A stretch of DNA of 28,110 nucleotides. Origin: a virus. Below are positions 2,727-25,627 of the stretch, in pieces. Numbering within the stretch: the stretch's first letter is position 1; each line of letters opens with the position of its first letter. The position numbers and the translations under genes were made by a program. The DNA is taken from positions 1-28,110 of IMG/VR virus record IMGVR_UViG_3300020596_000090; one strand, 5' to 3'. Under the pieces are notes generated by a model, which did no database searches, was not told where the DNA came from, and saw only the letters and a program-made list of their open reading frames with translations.

Positions 2727-2930
2727 ATGCTTTGCTTTAGCCATGGTTCACGTCCGATCTACTTCAGCGGCACTTACCTGGACTGCCCCCTGTGCGCTGC
2801 TGCCGCCGCTCGTAAGGCAGCAAAGGCCGCCGCCTTGATCTTAGACAAGGCCGTCGACCGGATGTTCGAGGAACCAGCGCCGACGGCCGAGGCGCCCACC
2901 GCCACCGCGCCCCCCCTGGCGGTGCGCTAA
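2727..2930 (+). CDS. Small early protein, 67 aa
   Basis: First gene of the rightward early operon. Not recognised. It has one CPLC pair (residues 20-23), then an Ala/Lys-rich helix and a Pro/Ala/Thr-rich tail. A single CxxC cannot form a full zinc site alone, so any zinc binding would need the nearby His/Cys or a dimer. GGAGGG lies about 9 nt before the ATG, inside the hairpin loop described above. Its TAA shares one base with the next ATG (TAATG). Confidence 0.6.
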   Translation: MLCFSHGSRPIYFSGTYLDCPLCAAAAARKAAKAAALILDKAVDRMFEEPAPTAEAPTATAPPLAVR

Positions 2931-3604
2931 TGGACGCGCCCGCCACCTACTGCGCGCTCCTGCTCGAGCGCGAACAATTCTTAAATCACCACTGCGTCAC
3001 CGGCCACGCCCCGAGTATCGACGCGCTCTGGCGCCTCGAATTGCTTTTGGCCGCCGAGTCGCCGACCCCCGAGCTGGTCGCCGAGTGGGCCGACCGGGCG
3101 ATTGAGACGCTAACGTGGTCCCGCTCCGCGGCCCGCGTCACGGCCGGCACCGACAGTGGTAGCGGAGGCAAGCCGCGATTGCGCACAGGCACGGCAACGG
3201 TGTGCCGCCCACGAGCGTGTGCTTCGCTCATTTTTTGGGAAGGGGGCGTAGCGATGACCGTCCAACTTTTGTCGGCAGCCGATGGCTACAGAGTCACGGT
3301 CCGCAAGACGAGCACCGAACGGCTCTATGGCTACAGAGTCACGGTCCGCAAGACGAGCACCGAACGGCTCTTTGCGTCTGTCGACGCTGCGTACGCCGAA
3401 TACATGGACCGCTGCTCGCAGGGTCAGCGCGCGACCCTGTGGGCCTGGATGGACGCCACCGACGACTACGACGCCGGGTGGGAGCCGCTCGCGACGTGGC
3501 TTGACTACGACGACCTGCGCGACGAGGCGGCGCGTCGAGGCGATGAGCCGAATCCGCGCGAGGGTGACGATGACGAAGCCCGCGACACGGCGGCGCCGCG
3601 ATGA
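2930..3604 (+). CDS. Early hypothetical protein, 224 aa, with an internal tandem duplication
   Basis: Not recognised. The N-terminal 65 residues look like a helical domain (ALLLEREQFLNHH, IDALWRLELLLAAE). Residues 66-108 are low-complexity and resemble translated non-coding DNA. A second, better-supported start is an in-frame ATG at 3254, preceded by GAAGGGGG, giving a 116-aa protein that starts MTVQLLSAADGYRVTV. The C-terminal part has a 15-residue tandem repeat (GYRVTVRKTSTERL, twice) and an acidic tail. Two readings are possible: one 224-aa protein, or an upstream gene that lost its stop and now reads into a second gene. The stop overlaps the next ATG (ATGA). Confidence 0.55.
   Translation: MDAPATYCALLLEREQFLNHHCVTGHAPSIDALWRLELLLAAESPTPELVAEWADRAIETLTWSRSAARVTAGTDSGSGGKPRLRTGTATVCRPRACASLIFWEGGVAMTVQLLSAADGYRVTVRKTSTERLYGYRVTVRKTSTERLFASVDAAYAEYMDRCSQGQRATLWAWMDATDDYDAGWEPLATWLDYDDLRDEAARRGDEPNPREGDDDEARDTAAPR
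3282..3371 (+). repeat. Exact 45-bp tandem duplication inside an early gene
   Basis: Two identical 45-bp units (3282-3326 and 3327-3371) lie head to tail with no mismatch. The period is a multiple of three, so the frame is kept and 15 residues are doubled. Perfect identity suggests a recent event. Confidence 0.95.
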
Positions 3605-6214: not shown

Positions 6215-6310
6215 GAGACGTTCACCACCGCCGGCGCAAGTTATATCGAGAGGCTCGGCGCCATCGAGGCCGCCAAGGCCGACCTTGTGAAGCACGTGGA
6301 GGGCCGATGA
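6215..6310 (+). pseudogene. 3' remnant of a gene coupled to the integrase
   Basis: A reading frame ending in TGA at 6308-6310 encodes a coding-like helical tail (ERLGAIEAAKADLVKHVEGR), and its stop overlaps the next ATG (ATGA), as do true gene ends elsewhere here. There is no usable start codon before it, and it runs back into the lipoprotein gene in another frame. It is read as the tail of a gene whose front was replaced, perhaps when the lipoprotein gene arrived. Confidence 0.35.
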
Positions 6311-6603
6311 GACGCTCCTACCCCACCAACGTCATCCCGCGCGGCGCCAAGCTGTACATCAAGGTGCGCATGCCTGACGGCCGGTGGAAGCAGGCCGCAA
6401 CCGGCCTCGGGCTCGACCAGGGGGACGCCGCCGGCGAGCTTCAGCGACGCACGCAGGTGATCGCGAATACGAAGGCGGTCATCATAGACCGTCGTTATGG
6501 TGGCTCGGCGAGTGGGCAACGAAGTGGCTGAAGCGGCGCGAGGACGACGCCCTCCAAGGCACTGCGCTCGCCCCGCTTTTGCGGAAAGCCGGGCCAGGTC
6601 GAG
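6307..6603 (+). pseudogene. Tyrosine integrase remnant (N-terminal part, frameshifted and truncated)
   Basis: The frame from 6307 encodes a segment like the arm-type N-terminal domain of tyrosine integrases: LYIKVRMPDGRWKQAATGLG, then a helix with alternating Ala/Arg. It ends at 6531 in meaningless sequence. From about 6505 another frame reads LGEWATKWLKRRED, which is what normally follows as the start of the core-binding domain. A -1 type frameshift near 6495-6510 therefore separates the two halves. The core-binding and catalytic domains (R..HxxR..Y) are absent, because the opposing late operon ends at 6606. A small CCGC-TTTT-GCGG hairpin lies at 6573-6584. Identification is from pattern recognition, without a search. 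Confidence 0.6.
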
Positions 6604-6605
6604 GG

Positions 6606-6845
6606 CTAGCGCGCCGCAAGCACCAACGCGAGCAGCGCTATAGCCGTGAAGGCCACCGCAAAGACGACGGCCAACCACTTCCACTCTTCGCCCCGTCGTT
6701 TCGTCACAATCAACTCCTGATGGATTTCACCAAGCTCGTCCGCAATCCGCGCGTGAGCGTCGCGCAATTTTGCTACTTCACAGGTCGTGTCGATATCGAC
6801 AACGGTGTGCCGCCCGTACTCGCTGCGCAGCCAGTCGTCCGTCAT
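6606..6845 (-). CDS. Coil plus C-terminal membrane segment protein, 79 aa
   Basis: Last gene of the late operon. It has an N-terminal soluble part, a helical heptad-rich middle (EVAKLRDAHARIADELGEIHQELI), a basic KRRGEEWKW patch and one C-terminal hydrophobic segment (LAVVFAVAFTAIALLALVL). This arrangement suggests a tail-anchored inner-membrane protein. It follows the endolysin, so a lysis accessory role is plausible but unproven. The ATG at 6845 overlaps the previous TGA (ATGA), which is why the longer reading to 6914 is not used. Confidence 0.6.
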   Translation of the reverse strand: MTDDWLRSEYGRHTVVDIDTTCEVAKLRDAHARIADELGEIHQELIVTKRRGEEWKWLAVVFAVAFTAIALLALVLAAR

Positions 6846-7114
6846 CCCAGCACCGCACACGCCGCAAGCAGCGTCGCAATCGTCGCCAGGGCTACACCCG
6901 CCGTCGAGCGCCAACGCCCCTCGAGGTAGCGGTTGCGATCAACTAAGCGCTCGCGGTCGACACGGAGGTATTCAACCTCGCCAGCAAGAGACGCGATCTG
7001 CCTGTCTGCCGCCGCCAGCTGCTTGCTCCGCAACACCAGAAGCTGATCGATCTCGTTGGCGATCGTAACGTCCCACGAGCTCGGGAGCTCACGGTCGCAA
7101 GACAAGGCGGTCAC
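6842..7114 (-). CDS. Coil plus C-terminal membrane segment protein, 90 aa
   Basis: A helical, charged coiled-coil region covers about residues 18-68 (EIDQLLVLRSKQLAAADRQ, EVEYLRVDRERLVDRNRY). One hydrophobic C-terminal segment follows (GVALATIATLLAACAVLG). The layout matches the neighbour at 6606, so the two may form a pair. The GTG at 7114 overlaps the endolysin TGA (GTGA). Function unknown. Lysis or superinfection roles are guesses from position. Confidence 0.6.
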   Translation of the reverse strand: MTALSCDRELPSSWDVTIANEIDQLLVLRSKQLAAADRQIASLAGEVEYLRVDRERLVDRNRYLEGRWRSTAGVALATIATLLAACAVLG

Positions 7115-7566
7115 GTGATTCCTGCGACTATCTTTAAGAGGATTAGGCCCTCAAGAAACGTCCAGTGCCACGGCTCGCTTCGAACGTCGTTAACCCACCC
7201 GTACGTCGACGCGTTCGCCTGCAACCACCTGTCCGTCGTGCCGTCCGCGATACCGTTGTTGGTATGGTCGGTATCGGCGCGGTTGATATCCACCGACACG
7301 CCGCTCTGGTGAGTTGAGCGCCCCGGCAAAGCAACCGCTTTGTACTTGCGGCCATACGCAATAGCGGTTTGTCGCAACGACCACTCCCGTCGCTGCTCGA
7401 GCATCGACCGAAACGCGGAGTTGACGCGCAAGATAACGCCATCGCTGCGGGCCGCTTCCGCCATCAGCAGGAACGCCATTGCAGCGGGGCGGTGCAATGA
7501 ATGCCCGTTGCCGATAGGCACGAGATCGAGCGCAACAGCTCTTCCTAAAATCCAACCGCCGGCCAT
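7111..7566 (-). CDS. M15-type peptidoglycan peptidase (endolysin), 151 aa
   Basis: Zinc peptidase of the VanY/D-Ala-D-Ala carboxypeptidase (M15, LAS) type, expected to cut peptide bonds in peptidoglycan at lysis. The zinc and catalytic residues are all visible: SAFR (50-53, substrate-side Arg), S84-x-H86-x2-G89-x3-D93 (STHQSGVSVD), and E131-P-W-H134. No signal peptide is evident, so it would need a holin. The ATG at 7566 is 1 nt after the upstream TGA and has GGAG about 8 nt before it. The ORF could open at 7644, but that would overlap the previous gene in a poor sequence context. Confidence 0.85.
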   Translation of the reverse strand: MAGGWILGRAVALDLVPIGNGHSLHRPAAMAFLLMAEAARSDGVILRVNSAFRSMLEQRREWSLRQTAIAYGRKYKAVALPGRSTHQSGVSVDINRADTDHTNNGIADGTTDRWLQANASTYGWVNDVRSEPWHWTFLEGLILLKIVAGIT

Positions 7567-21224: not shown

Positions 21225-22331
21225 TTAGTCAGCGGCAGCGGACACGAAGACCGTGCCGGTGCCGATCTGGACGCTGTTGAACGAAGCCTTTGCGCAACCC
21301 CGAATCTCGGCAACGGCAACGCCGCGACGATTTTCGTAGTCGAACTCGTCCGTCTTAACTTTCATACGGTCGCCCCAGGCCAAAAACAGCGACTGCGCGC
21401 CGACCAAGAACGCAGCTTCGACCGGGGTCGTGCCGCTTGCGCCGACATTGCCGAGATGCGCGCCGCCACTTGCGACAGCGCGGTCAAGCTCGGGGACTTC
21501 CTTGCAGATCACATTGCCGATCTTAAGGTCATCAGCCGAGAAGATCGGGTTGTCATCGCCACGCATACCAGCGCTGGCCTGCACGGTTTCAAAGTTTGCA
21601 GACAGGTCCCGGAAAGGAAGCGAGCCCATGAGCAGGACAAACTGCTCCGAGCCTGCGCGCGAACCCTTCGACACCAACGGCCGCATATTCGGCGACGCCG
21701 ACTGACATACACGCTTGATCAAGCGCACGATGTTTTGATGCATATCGTCGTTGGTGCCGTCGATGGTCGCAAGGTCCGTCGCGTGAACGCCGGAGTAGTT
21801 GGACTTCGCCGTACCGTAAAGGATCCGCTCATTCGTCGTCGCTGGGTTATTGGCGGCCGCCCACGCATTGCGCTCGGTGGCCGTTGCGGCAGCGTAAGTC
21901 GTGGTGCCGTCAACGTGGGGCGAGAGCCAGCGCGCGATAAACAAGTCGCGCAACTTTTCCATGTTCCACTGCCGAAGCATGACACGAGCGGCTTGCAACA
22001 GGTCGATCTTCGTCTTGATCTTCTCAAAGCGGCCGACAATGACGGCGTTTCGGATCTGATCGACGAAGACTTTTTGCCCGTAGTTGCCGAGGGCCTCCTC
22101 GTTACCCGTCAGGGTCGAATCACCCGTGACACCGTTACCGGTGAGGCGAGTGACAAACGAGAAGGTGACCGAATCACCGGCCTCCTTCATCAGCTCTTCT
22201 TTGACCTGGATGGCCGCGTTTGCGTCCGTGCCCATTAGCGCCTTGAACGGATTCATACGAACATACTCGTAGAATTCGTCGTCAGCCCACTGCGAAACTC
22301 GATTCGTTGTATGTACCGCTATATCTGCCAT
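21225..22331 (-). CDS. Major capsid protein, N4-gp56/DUF4043 type, 368 aa
   Basis: Coat protein of the HK97 fold in the DUF4043/N4-gp56 group. Marks include NPFKALMG, an EELMKEAGDSVTFSFV strand, LTGNEEALGNYGQKVFVDQIRNAV (residues about 74-97), RQWNMEKLRD and a C-terminal FDYENRRGVAV. Length is typical. It is directly downstream of the scaffold, as usual. AGAGG lies about 8 nt before the ATG, inside a hairpin loop. It pairs with P22-like portal and hub proteins rather than a P22-type coat. Confidence 0.88.
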   Translation of the reverse strand: MADIAVHTTNRVSQWADDEFYEYVRMNPFKALMGTDANAAIQVKEELMKEAGDSVTFSFVTRLTGNGVTGDSTLTGNEEALGNYGQKVFVDQIRNAVIVGRFEKIKTKIDLLQAARVMLRQWNMEKLRDLFIARWLSPHVDGTTTYAAATATERNAWAAANNPATTNERILYGTAKSNYSGVHATDLATIDGTNDDMHQNIVRLIKRVCQSASPNMRPLVSKGSRAGSEQFVLLMGSLPFRDLSANFETVQASAGMRGDDNPIFSADDLKIGNVICKEVPELDRAVASGGAHLGNVGASGTTPVEAAFLVGAQSLFLAWGDRMKVKTDEFDYENRRGVAVAEIRGCAKASFNSVQIGTGTVFVSAAAD

Positions 22332-22362: not shown

Positions 22363-23244
22363 TCAGCCTAGGATTTCGTCCATGGACCGAGGACCCGCAA
22401 ACGCCGCTCTGCTCGCCGCTCCGCCGCTTCCGCGACTGCTTGCGATGGATTTGGGTGTTTGGGTCGGTCGCGCGGAAGGTCCATCGCCACTCTGGCCAGA
22501 CTGCTCTGCTTCCCACTTTGCCCGTAGCTGCTTTTCGAAGTCGTCGAGACTCGACACACCCTGCAGACGCTTGGCCGTACGGGCCGTTTCGGCTGCAAAG
22601 AGTACCGGGTTGCGATAACTAGGATGACGGCCGTCCGCGATAGCGTTAAACTCGGCAACAAGTTGCGGGTTCTGTTGGGCCAATTGGCCAAACAGAGCAA
22701 GCAGCTCTTTGCCGTCTTCGTGCGCTGCCTCGTACGACTCTTGAGCGTCTGCGATCCGTTCACGTCGGAACATCACGCGTTGCTCTTCGAGCCTCGCCTC
22801 GACCGTCTTGCCGCGCTCGTCAGCTACGCGTCGCGCGTAGGCCGCCGGGTCAGCATAAAAGTCAGCCGAGTCGTCCTTCGGGGTGTCGATGGGTGCTGGA
22901 ACTGCAGGCCGTTGCTGCATGGCCTGCATCTGGCCGGTGAGCTGGGCGAGTTGCCTCTCGAGCTCCCGACTACGCTTATCGCGCTCACGTGCCTCTTTGC
23001 GAGACGCACCTAGCGCTTTACGGAGGCCTGCCGTGTTCAGCTCGGCGGGTTCGTTGTCTTGGTCGACCCCATCGTCGTGTTCCATCCCGGAACGGGCGGT
23101 CGTGCTTTGCTCAAGTCGCTCATCAGAAACGTCAAGCTTTTCGGCCGATGTGGCGTCGGGCTTTTCGCTGGACTGAGGGGCATCCTCGAGGGTGGGCCTC
23201 GACTTGATGGGTGAATCGCTCAAAATCGAATCCATCGATCTCAC
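22363..23244 (-). CDS. Capsid scaffolding protein, 293 aa
   Basis: A highly charged, disordered N-terminal 70 residues precede a long coiled coil (LRKALGASRKEARERDKRSR, LERQLAQLTGQMQ). A helical middle and a Ser/Gly-rich tail follow, ending RSMDEILG. This is the profile of phage scaffolds, which assemble the coat and are then lost. It lies directly upstream of the coat. N- and C-termini carry near-copies of one motif, RSMD[SE]IL. The GTG at 23244 has GGAGAGG 7 nt upstream; an in-frame ATG at 23235 is possible. First gene of the late minus operon. Confidence 0.78.
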   Translation of the reverse strand: MRSMDSILSDSPIKSRPTLEDAPQSSEKPDATSAEKLDVSDERLEQSTTARSGMEHDDGVDQDNEPAELNTAGLRKALGASRKEARERDKRSRELERQLAQLTGQMQAMQQRPAVPAPIDTPKDDSADFYADPAAYARRVADERGKTVEARLEEQRVMFRRERIADAQESYEAAHEDGKELLALFGQLAQQNPQLVAEFNAIADGRHPSYRNPVLFAAETARTAKRLQGVSSLDDFEKQLRAKWEAEQSGQSGDGPSARPTQTPKSIASSRGSGGAASRAAFAGPRSMDEILG

Positions 23245-23322
23245 GCGGTTACCTCTCCAAAACGCCCATCACGGGCGGCGCATCGGTTTTTATCCATCAC
23301 ACGCGCAACGGACAGCTGATGC

Positions 23323-23342
23323 ATGTCAACAAGTGTTGACAT
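23323..23342. promoter_or_regulatory. Palindrome 1 in the portal/scaffold divergent gap
   Basis: ATGTCAACA-AG-TGTTGACAT is a perfect inverted repeat (9-bp arms, 2-nt spacer). It holds TTGACA on both strands, but no matching -10 box is in place. Best read as an operator for a dimeric regulator. Confidence 0.7.
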
Positions 23343-23356
23343 ATGGTACGGACGAC

Positions 23357-23374
23357 TGTCAACAAACGTTGACA
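23357..23374. promoter_or_regulatory. Palindrome 2 in the portal/scaffold divergent gap
   Basis: TGTCAAC-AAAC-GTTGACA is a perfect inverted repeat (7-bp arms) with the same half-site TGTCAAC as the first. Centres are 33 bp apart, about three helical turns, so both sites face the same side of the DNA. It lies 21 bp before the portal start. Confidence 0.75.
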
Positions 23375-23395
23375 ACTTCCGTTGGGGGGTTACGC

Positions 23396-25627
23396 ATGGC
23401 GTCAATGTACGTTTCTGAGTCTGAGCCTCAAAAACCCGACGCCATCGACGCCTACGAAAAAGTCCCCGACGTCGACCACCCTGAGTTGTCGGACGTGGTT
23501 GCCTGGGTCGACGAATGGGAGGAGGACACCGCGACGCCGCGCGAGCTCGCACGCCAGGACCGCGACTACTACGACGGCAACCAGCTCACGCAGGAGGAGC
23601 TTGACGATCTTGAGAATCGCGGTCAGCCGGCCATTATCAAAAACCGTATCGCCCGCAAGGTGAACACGGTCTTAGGCGACGAGATCGACAAGCGCGTTGA
23701 CCCTGTCGCTCGCCCGCGCACGCCTCAGCACACCGATTCCGCCCGCGCTGTAACCGACGGGTTGCGCTACGTTGCCGACGAGCAGGAGTTCAACCGTGTT
23801 CGAACGGCCGTCTTCAAAAACATTCTCGTCGAGGGAATGGGCGGGGCGCTGAAGTCCGTCGACGACGACGGCAAGCACGTGCTGACGCACATCGAGTGGG
23901 ACAGACTTATCTATGACCCTAAGAGCCGGCGCGCCGACTTCAAGGACGCAAAGTTTTTAGGGATCTTGCTGTGGCAGGACTTAGACGATGCGATCGCCGA
24001 CAACCCGGACGCAGATCCTAACGACCTAAACTCAGCCGTCGCAAACGATCAAATCACGTCCTCCGCCGAAACGACCGAAGATACGCCGCGCGGCGCCTGG
24101 GCCGACCGGCGCCGCCAGCGGGTGAAGATTGCCGAGATCTATTATCGAATCGGCCGCAACTACTACTGGTGCCGCTTTACGAAGGGCGCGTGGCTGGTTG
24201 AGCCGACCCGCACCGCGATCCTTGATGAGAAAAATAAGTACTCAGTCAACCCGCTCCTCCTAACCAGCTGCTACGTCGACCGCAACGGCGCACGTCGCGG
24301 CATCGTCCGCGATCTTATCAGCCCCCAGGACGAGGTTAATAAGCGCGCATCAAAGGCGCTGCACTTGCTCAACGTCCGCTCCGTTATCGCGGAGCACGAC
24401 GTCGTTGCCGACCCTGACAAGTTTATGGAGCAGATCGCAAAGCCAGACGGCTTTGCAGAGGTCGAAGCCGGCGCCCTGCAGGAGCAGCGGATCTTAATCC
24501 ACGACGGCTCAGCGCTTGCCGCCCCGCACGTCCAGCTGATGCAGATGGCCATGAGCGATATCGACACCATCGGCCCGTCGGCGTCGAACCTTCCGGACCT
24601 TCCGCAGGCCGCGTCTGGACGGGCTATTCTTGCTCGCACAAAGGCGGCTGCCAAGGAGATCCAACCCGTCTACGACGCCCTCGAGATGTGGACTCTCGCC
24701 GTCTACACGATCGACTGGCTCTGCATTCGCTCCGCGTGGACCGAGGAAAAATGGCTCCGCGTCACTGACGACAACGAGCTTGAGGGTTATCGCTTCACTG
24801 GTCTTAATCGCCGGCTGACCCGCGCCGCACGCTTACAAGAGCTGCTCGAAAAGCAACCGCCTGTGCCGCTCCCCAAGGCGCTCGAGACAGCGGCAGGCGA
24901 GTTTGCCCCCCTCGTGCTCGCCCAAGCCCAGGCGTTGCTCGCGCAACAGCATCCGCCGCAGCCTGTGCCCGGGCAACCACCGCCCGACCCCCAGCAGGCT
25001 ATCGTCGGGCTCGTGCTGCAAAACCCGCTGATGCAGCAAGACGTCACCGTCGACCAGGTTGATCAGATCCTCGTTGATATTATTCTCGACACAACTCCCA
25101 ACACCGCTGTGATCGAGCAGGAGGAGTTCGAGCAATGGGCGCAGCTTGCGCCGTCGCTTGTCCAGGGCGGACTCGACCCGCGCGAAGCCGCTAAGCTTAC
25201 GGTTCAGCTGTCGCAGTTCCGAGACAAAAACAAGGTCCTCGAGATGCTCAACAAGCAGCCACCGCCCCAGGTACAACAGCAACAGCAAATGATACAGCAG
25301 CTGCAGCAGCAGATGGCCCAAGTCGAGCTGCAGCTTAAGCAGTCCGAGGTGGCCAAAAACCAGGCCGACACCCAGCTGTCGGCCGCTCGTGCCCAGGCCG
25401 AGATGGCAATGCTTGGCCAGCCACACCAGGCGTCGCCGGTTGACCAGGCCCGGGCCCAGCGCGAGCTGGTGAAGACCCAGCTCGACGTCGAGCGCACACA
25501 GGCTCAGGTCGGACGCGACCACGCGGCAACCCAGCGCGACGTCGCGGCAGCCGAAACACACCGCGTCGACCAGGTCATCAAAATCCAGCGGGCAAACCAG
25601 CCCCCCGAGGTGCCCTTTGTCCCGTAG
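23396..25627 (+). CDS. Portal protein, P22-like, 743 aa
   Basis: Dodecameric ring at the packaging vertex, by family. Residues 30-100 read like the start of P22-type portals (ELARQDRDYYDGNQLTQEELDDLENRGQPAIIKNRIARKVNTVLGDE), followed by PVARPRTPQHTD..A and a beta-rich wing with WDRLIYDPKSRRADFKDAKF. The C-terminal part, from about residue 622, is a Gln-rich coiled coil (QQQQQMIQQLQQQMAQ), as in long P22-type portals with a barrel. Length is close to P22's 725. The ATG at 23396 has a GGGGGG ribosome site about 7 nt before it; the frame stays open to 23192, but that would cross both operators. It is on the strand opposite to terminase, scaffold and coat. Confidence 0.88.
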   Translation: MASMYVSESEPQKPDAIDAYEKVPDVDHPELSDVVAWVDEWEEDTATPRELARQDRDYYDGNQLTQEELDDLENRGQPAIIKNRIARKVNTVLGDEIDKRVDPVARPRTPQHTDSARAVTDGLRYVADEQEFNRVRTAVFKNILVEGMGGALKSVDDDGKHVLTHIEWDRLIYDPKSRRADFKDAKFLGILLWQDLDDAIADNPDADPNDLNSAVANDQITSSAETTEDTPRGAWADRRRQRVKIAEIYYRIGRNYYWCRFTKGAWLVEPTRTAILDEKNKYSVNPLLLTSCYVDRNGARRGIVRDLISPQDEVNKRASKALHLLNVRSVIAEHDVVADPDKFMEQIAKPDGFAEVEAGALQEQRILIHDGSALAAPHVQLMQMAMSDIDTIGPSASNLPDLPQAASGRAILARTKAAAKEIQPVYDALEMWTLAVYTIDWLCIRSAWTEEKWLRVTDDNELEGYRFTGLNRRLTRAARLQELLEKQPPVPLPKALETAAGEFAPLVLAQAQALLAQQHPPQPVPGQPPPDPQQAIVGLVLQNPLMQQDVTVDQVDQILVDIILDTTPNTAVIEQEEFEQWAQLAPSLVQGGLDPREAAKLTVQLSQFRDKNKVLEMLNKQPPPQVQQQQQMIQQLQQQMAQVELQLKQSEVAKNQADTQLSAARAQAEMAMLGQPHQASPVDQARAQRELVKTQLDVERTQAQVGRDHAATQRDVAAAETHRVDQVIKIQRANQPPEVPFVP

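Follow-up and report, generated by a model that had tools for sequence, protein, structure and literature searches.

Gene content and layout of the locus

The window analysed here comprises all 28110 bases of its virus record. Another record, IMGVR_UViG_3300020057_000173 (L008/L009), is ~99.9% identical to it and overlaps both of its ends, and together the two close a circle of ~30.8 kb. The 2.7 kb absent from the window encode an XRE and a VRR-NUC protein and contain the beginning of the primase gene. Within the window, the gap at 23245-23395 separates the divergent scaffold and portal genes (Table 1). The first-pass annotation took this gap for a leader and for the sole intergenic gap serving the portal and the whole late operon; being flanked by divergent genes, however, it is no leader running in a single direction, and the terminase genes lie outside it.

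The divergent arrangement is common to the uncultured relatives L268, L269 and L270, whose capsid and portal proteins are 60–64% and 48–51% identical to those of the window phage (60% and 50% in L270), and it is therefore a feature of the clade rather than a peculiarity of the window. L268 and L270 have two or three extra genes between portal and scaffold. The scaffold protein shows 27–32% identity to those of L235, L236, L268 and L269. In the Pseudanabaena phages Pam5, Pam1 and Pan3 and in CBW1004C-Prop1, whose portals match at 34–39%, the terminase, portal and capsid genes share one orientation with the scaffold gene (or with an unnamed gene that stands in for it). Capsid homologues from Pseudomonadota reach 38% identity at most, and no phage record matched when the 2.5 kb surrounding the palindromes described below served as nucleotide query.

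Table 1. Coordinates of genes and sequence features around the scaffold–portal gap
Feature	Position	Strand	Sequence	Location or role	Basis
Major capsid gene	21225..22331	-			PF13252, E 4e-42; PHROG 334
Scaffold gene	22363..23244	-		First in leftward head/tail operon	PHROG 648, E 5e-5
Hairpin	23263..23277	-	CGCCC-GTGAT-GGGCG	Scaffold leader, 5' of ribosome-binding site	RNA folds
Palindrome 1 (O1)	23324-23341		TGTCAACAAGTGTTGACA	Putative scaffold promoter, about -10/+1	18/18 copy in L270
Putative -10 of scaffold/capsid promoter	23343..23348	-	TACCAT		Comparison with relatives, by eye
Palindrome 2 (O2)	23357-23374		TGTCAACAAACGTTGACA	Over the place of the scaffold -35, 21 bp before portal ATG	
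Portal gene	23396..25627	+		First in rightward unit	PF16510 P22_portal, E 4e-89

Similar hairpins to that in the scaffold leader, compared by eye, occupy the same place just before the scaffold start codon in L235/L236 (CGGC-GTGAT-GCCG and CGGC-GCGAT-GCCG). With a GTGAT/GCGAT loop and stem letters that vary among the relatives, this is possibly a translation-control element.

Twin palindromes in the gap

The gap holds two perfect palindromes built on the half-site TGTCAAC, both of them where the first-pass annotation had placed them. On the + strand palindrome 1 reads TGTCAACA-AG-TGTTGACA, its arms extending to 9 bp if the flanking A/T at 23323/23342 is included, and palindrome 2 reads TGTCAAC-AAAC-GTTGACA. 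They are spaced 33 bp start to start, which is approximately three helical turns, with 15 bp in between. The motif TGTCAAC-N4-GTTGACA has no further copy in the window with up to three mismatches allowed, and none in the 2.7 kb that complete the circle; a search of the remainder of the phage, as had been proposed, thus leaves the two palindromes as the only copies in ~30.8 kb. Four of the eight TGTCAA/TTGACA hexamers of the 28 kb fall within the 51-bp palindrome stretch. When twin pairs are defined as perfect inverted repeats with the same 7-bp arm within 60 bp, the window contains one, and no twin palindromes with identical arms arose in 300 dinucleotide shuffles of it. A scan of viral contigs for the twin site returned a sole match, the second contig of the same virus. 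Both palindromes are thus dyad-symmetric, near-identical copies present above chance, as in the operator pair of a transcription factor. The hexamer TTGACA had been noted to lack a matching -10, and none was found 16–18 bp from any of its four occurrences in this stretch; we therefore reject a sigma-70 promoter built on TTGACA.

Comparison of scaffold promoters

As a MAFFT alignment of the scaffold leaders was uninformative, we compared the promoters by eye. The scaffold gene is preceded by TTGCAA-17-TACCAT in L236 and L269, by TTGCAA-18-TAACAT in L235 and by TTGACA-17-AACCAT in L268, and the palindrome is absent from all four. Promoters of the TTGCAA/TTGACA-17/18-TAcCAT type serve these relatives with neither palindrome present, which lends no support to the earlier suggestion of phage-specific late promoter elements. 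In L268 the -35 lies within a different palindrome, TTGACAATTTGTCAA, and a similar palindrome is found 62 bp upstream. Taken together, the six promoter regions of the clade contain 11 perfect palindromes whose arms are 6 bp or longer, where mononucleotide shuffles would predict ~1.5.

In the fifth relative with a readable scaffold promoter, L270, positions 7118-7135 (TGTCAACACTTGTTGACA) match palindrome 1 at 18 of 18 letters on the scaffold strand and in the same orientation. This site follows directly on TAACAT (7112-7117), 60 bp before the scaffold start codon; in the window TACCAT (23348 to 23343) is followed by one base and then by palindrome 1. Within ~1000 positions, all 14 fixed bases would be matched by chance with a probability of about 1e-6. 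The first-pass annotation had looked to related phages for conservation of both palindromes: palindrome 1 is retained, as a single copy, in this one of the five relatives, and palindrome 2 in none.

When the promoters of the relatives are aligned with the window, the predicted scaffold transcript starts at palindrome 1, and its -35 region coincides with palindrome 2. The main weakness of this assignment is that no recognisable -35 was found in the window at 16–18 bp from TACCAT, which means that the promoter could be elsewhere.

Occurrence of the motif in other phages and in cellular genomes

All 18 letters of palindrome 1 recur in two phage contigs, 30 bp (L196) and 43 bp (L205) upstream of helix-turn-helix (HTH) genes. 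The L205 gene matches HTH_3 (E 7e-6); that of L196, which has an integrase nearby, gives a weak HTH_26 match under the cut-off. The 18 letters of palindrome 2 precede the XRE gene of L204 (HTH_3, E 5e-11) by ~25 nt, and they also occur inside a gene in L139/L144. L196, L204 and L205 represent phages unrelated to that of the window. In L196, L205 and L130 the TTGACA of the palindrome serves as a -35 with a fitting -10. Among the viral sites, 43 of 81 distinct ones are intragenic, which indicates that single sites are often due to chance and that few are linked to regulators.

A scan of cellular genomes for two sites 5–35 bp apart yielded at least 119 places. At least ~100 of them are in Actinobacteria (L011-L128, e.g. 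L017:2209-2493), where the palindromes stand in tandem 27–29 bp apart, typically 2–3 bp before a gene for an HTH-like protein of 70–78 aa that is followed by a gene for a Clp_N protein. In the three actinobacterial genomes tested the twin TGTCAAC-N4-GTTGACA sites are the only two copies, and the arrangement looks like a conserved autoregulatory operator. Other twin places adjoin TetR/SDR genes (Roseovarius, Nioella) and MarR-type genes (Zeimonas and another member of the Pseudomonadota); in an Archaeoglobi genome the neighbouring gene is penicillinase-repressor-like. Of nine genomes tested, eight have no copies beyond the twin sites; the exception is the Archaeoglobi genome, with 17. These 17 TGTCAAC-N4-GTTGACA sites of Archaeoglobi archaeon JdFR-42 (G012; L010, L111) may constitute a regulon. 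It appears that unrelated regulators arrived by convergence at a palindrome with the -35 hexamer in its half-site, and the motif therefore supports the reading as an operator and names no protein.

Among 398 Pseudomonadota genomes TGTCAACAWNTGTTGACA was found in one, the probe Roseovarius itself, and no host regulon was found in this set, though the phylum of the host may be a different one. A search of the literature for the palindrome found no phage operator.

A putative operator pair at the predicted divergent structural promoter

We interpret the two palindromes as a putative operator pair at a predicted divergent structural promoter. The protein that they serve would most likely be a repressor, and we assign this reading a probability of roughly 0.6. 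The first-pass annotation had already offered operators as one explanation, and two results favour it, namely the identical site at the equivalent promoter of L270 and the same 18-mers beside HTH repressor-like genes in other phages. Under this reading O1 and O2 would be bound by a dimeric HTH repressor of the promoter region between the scaffold/capsid/tail genes and the portal gene. O1 would cover about -10/+1 of the scaffold promoter, and O2 would present itself on the same face of the DNA three turns away, over the scaffold -35 region and immediately upstream of the portal gene. Two bound dimers, probably cooperating, would block transcription to the left, and probably also that to the right into the portal gene, until the repressor leaves. 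A repressor that switches structural genes off in this way would be an ordinary type of switch.

As to the protein that binds, the only clear HTH regulator of the phage is an XRE protein (L009:1253-1642, in the 2.7 kb outside the window), and the same 18-mers adjoin HTH genes in other phages. This XRE might accordingly be the repressor and prevent a lysogen from expressing its early as well as its structural genes; we regard this as unlikely, since its own promoter lacks the motif (the best match has at least 6 mismatches in 14) and since no match to it was found in the relatives, including L270, which shares the site. L270 encodes a different small XRE, whose upstream region also lacks the motif. 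Two homologues of the phage XRE are preceded instead by GTTTA-N8-TAAAC palindromes, a small sample in that start codons could be placed in only part of the homologues. Moreover, a probable early promoter on the + strand (2668-2697; TTGACA-17-TTATAA), upstream of the early + strand genes, carries in its spacer TAAACGCATCGTTTA, i.e. TAAACG-CAT-CGTTTA (2679-2693). The palindromes of the early promoter and of the XRE homologues point to a separate operator of the early region. Divergent from the early promoter lies a gene for a 125-aa protein (2250-2627) that is Cro-like by eye and that the first-pass annotation had put forward as the HTH-like binder. This proposal is not borne out: the protein matches no Pfam or PHROGs family, the motif is absent from its promoter, and the palindrome there is a different one. 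Both the XRE and the Cro-like protein are thus unlikely binders. A temperate-phage immunity operator would recur in front of the repressor gene of the phage itself, and no such copy was found. With the motif absent from both promoters and no homologue of this XRE in L270, the likeliest binder is a host repressor or an unrecognised phage protein. It is conceivable, at rather low odds, that a host-encoded repressor directly silences capsid, scaffold and portal, and that the window phage and L270 share no regulator of their own for the site.

The remaining explanations differ from the repressor reading in the sign or the nature of the control. The TACCAT without a -35 in the window is what an activator-dependent promoter would display, and O2 lies upstream of the predicted start; an activator of host or phage origin could thus bind the palindromes and turn on weak divergent structural promoters late in infection. 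Against this, O1 would overlap the start site in both the window and L270, which suits repression, and the relatives have -35 elements and no sites. On balance we consider activation improbable. Control at the level of RNA, by hairpins acting in translation or attenuation, is very improbable: each palindrome alone can fold into a 7-bp stem with a 4-nt loop at -7.3 kcal/mol, but the predicted scaffold transcript starts inside O1, the minimum-energy fold of the + strand pairs both palindromes with each other instead, and perfection of both arms is usual for DNA dyads. No T run follows either palindrome, and neither is among the terminator matches, for which reason an intrinsic terminator is rejected as well. 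Palindromes also mark packaging, replication and recombination sites in phages. Such a signal here, or mere chance, has hardly any likelihood, given that no twin appeared in the shuffles, that L270 preserves both where the site lies and how it is oriented with respect to the scaffold promoter, and that the site is absent from relatives sharing the head genes.

Comparison with known systems and implications

The OR/OL operator arrays of lambda, 434 and P22 consist of several near-identical, helically phased dyads on a divergent promoter. The dyads described here are likewise near-identical, helically phased and situated at a predicted divergent promoter; they differ in facing scaffold/capsid and portal rather than early genes, in having no adjoining repressor gene, and in that the palindrome of the early promoter is different. 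The uncharacterised twin sites of Actinobacteria (small HTH) and Pseudomonadota (TetR, MarR) share the same 14 fixed bases and are also paired, but there a regulator gene adjoins the site, and the spacing is 27–29 bp in Actinobacteria and 43–47 bp in the Pseudomonadota matches as against 33 bp here.

Sites of PpsR/CrtJ are often paired. Both palindromes fit the TGT-N12-ACA pattern of these sites (PMC4344238), whose half-sites are loose in comparison with the perfect 7–8 bp arms found here; the link to photosynthesis genes is also missing, and we reject this assignment. The BirA boxes of δ-proteobacteria, TTGTcAACC-N14-GGTTgACAA (PMC545781), resemble the palindromes in the half-site TTGTCAAC/GTTGACAA, but their half-sites stand 14–15 bp apart (N14/N15) versus 4 bp here and no biotin genes are present, so that these too are rejected.

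If the repressor reading is right, this clade of small P22-like phages controls its structural genes through direct repression at a local divergent promoter, unlike P22, which employs a single late promoter with antitermination. Were the repressor that of the host, host physiology would time the virion genes, apart from the early XRE/Cro circuit of the phage. The recurrence of a palindrome containing the -35 hexamer at regulator-linked sites in unrelated phages and in at least ~100 bacterial genomes also means that the motif alone cannot name its regulator.

Other features of the window

Two overlapping frames at 6307-6929 (+ strand) resemble, by eye, a broken N-terminal part of a tyrosine integrase and have no Pfam match. 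At 3282-3371, within the open frame 2930-3604, there is a perfect 45-bp tandem duplication (LYGYRVTVRKTSTER repeated).
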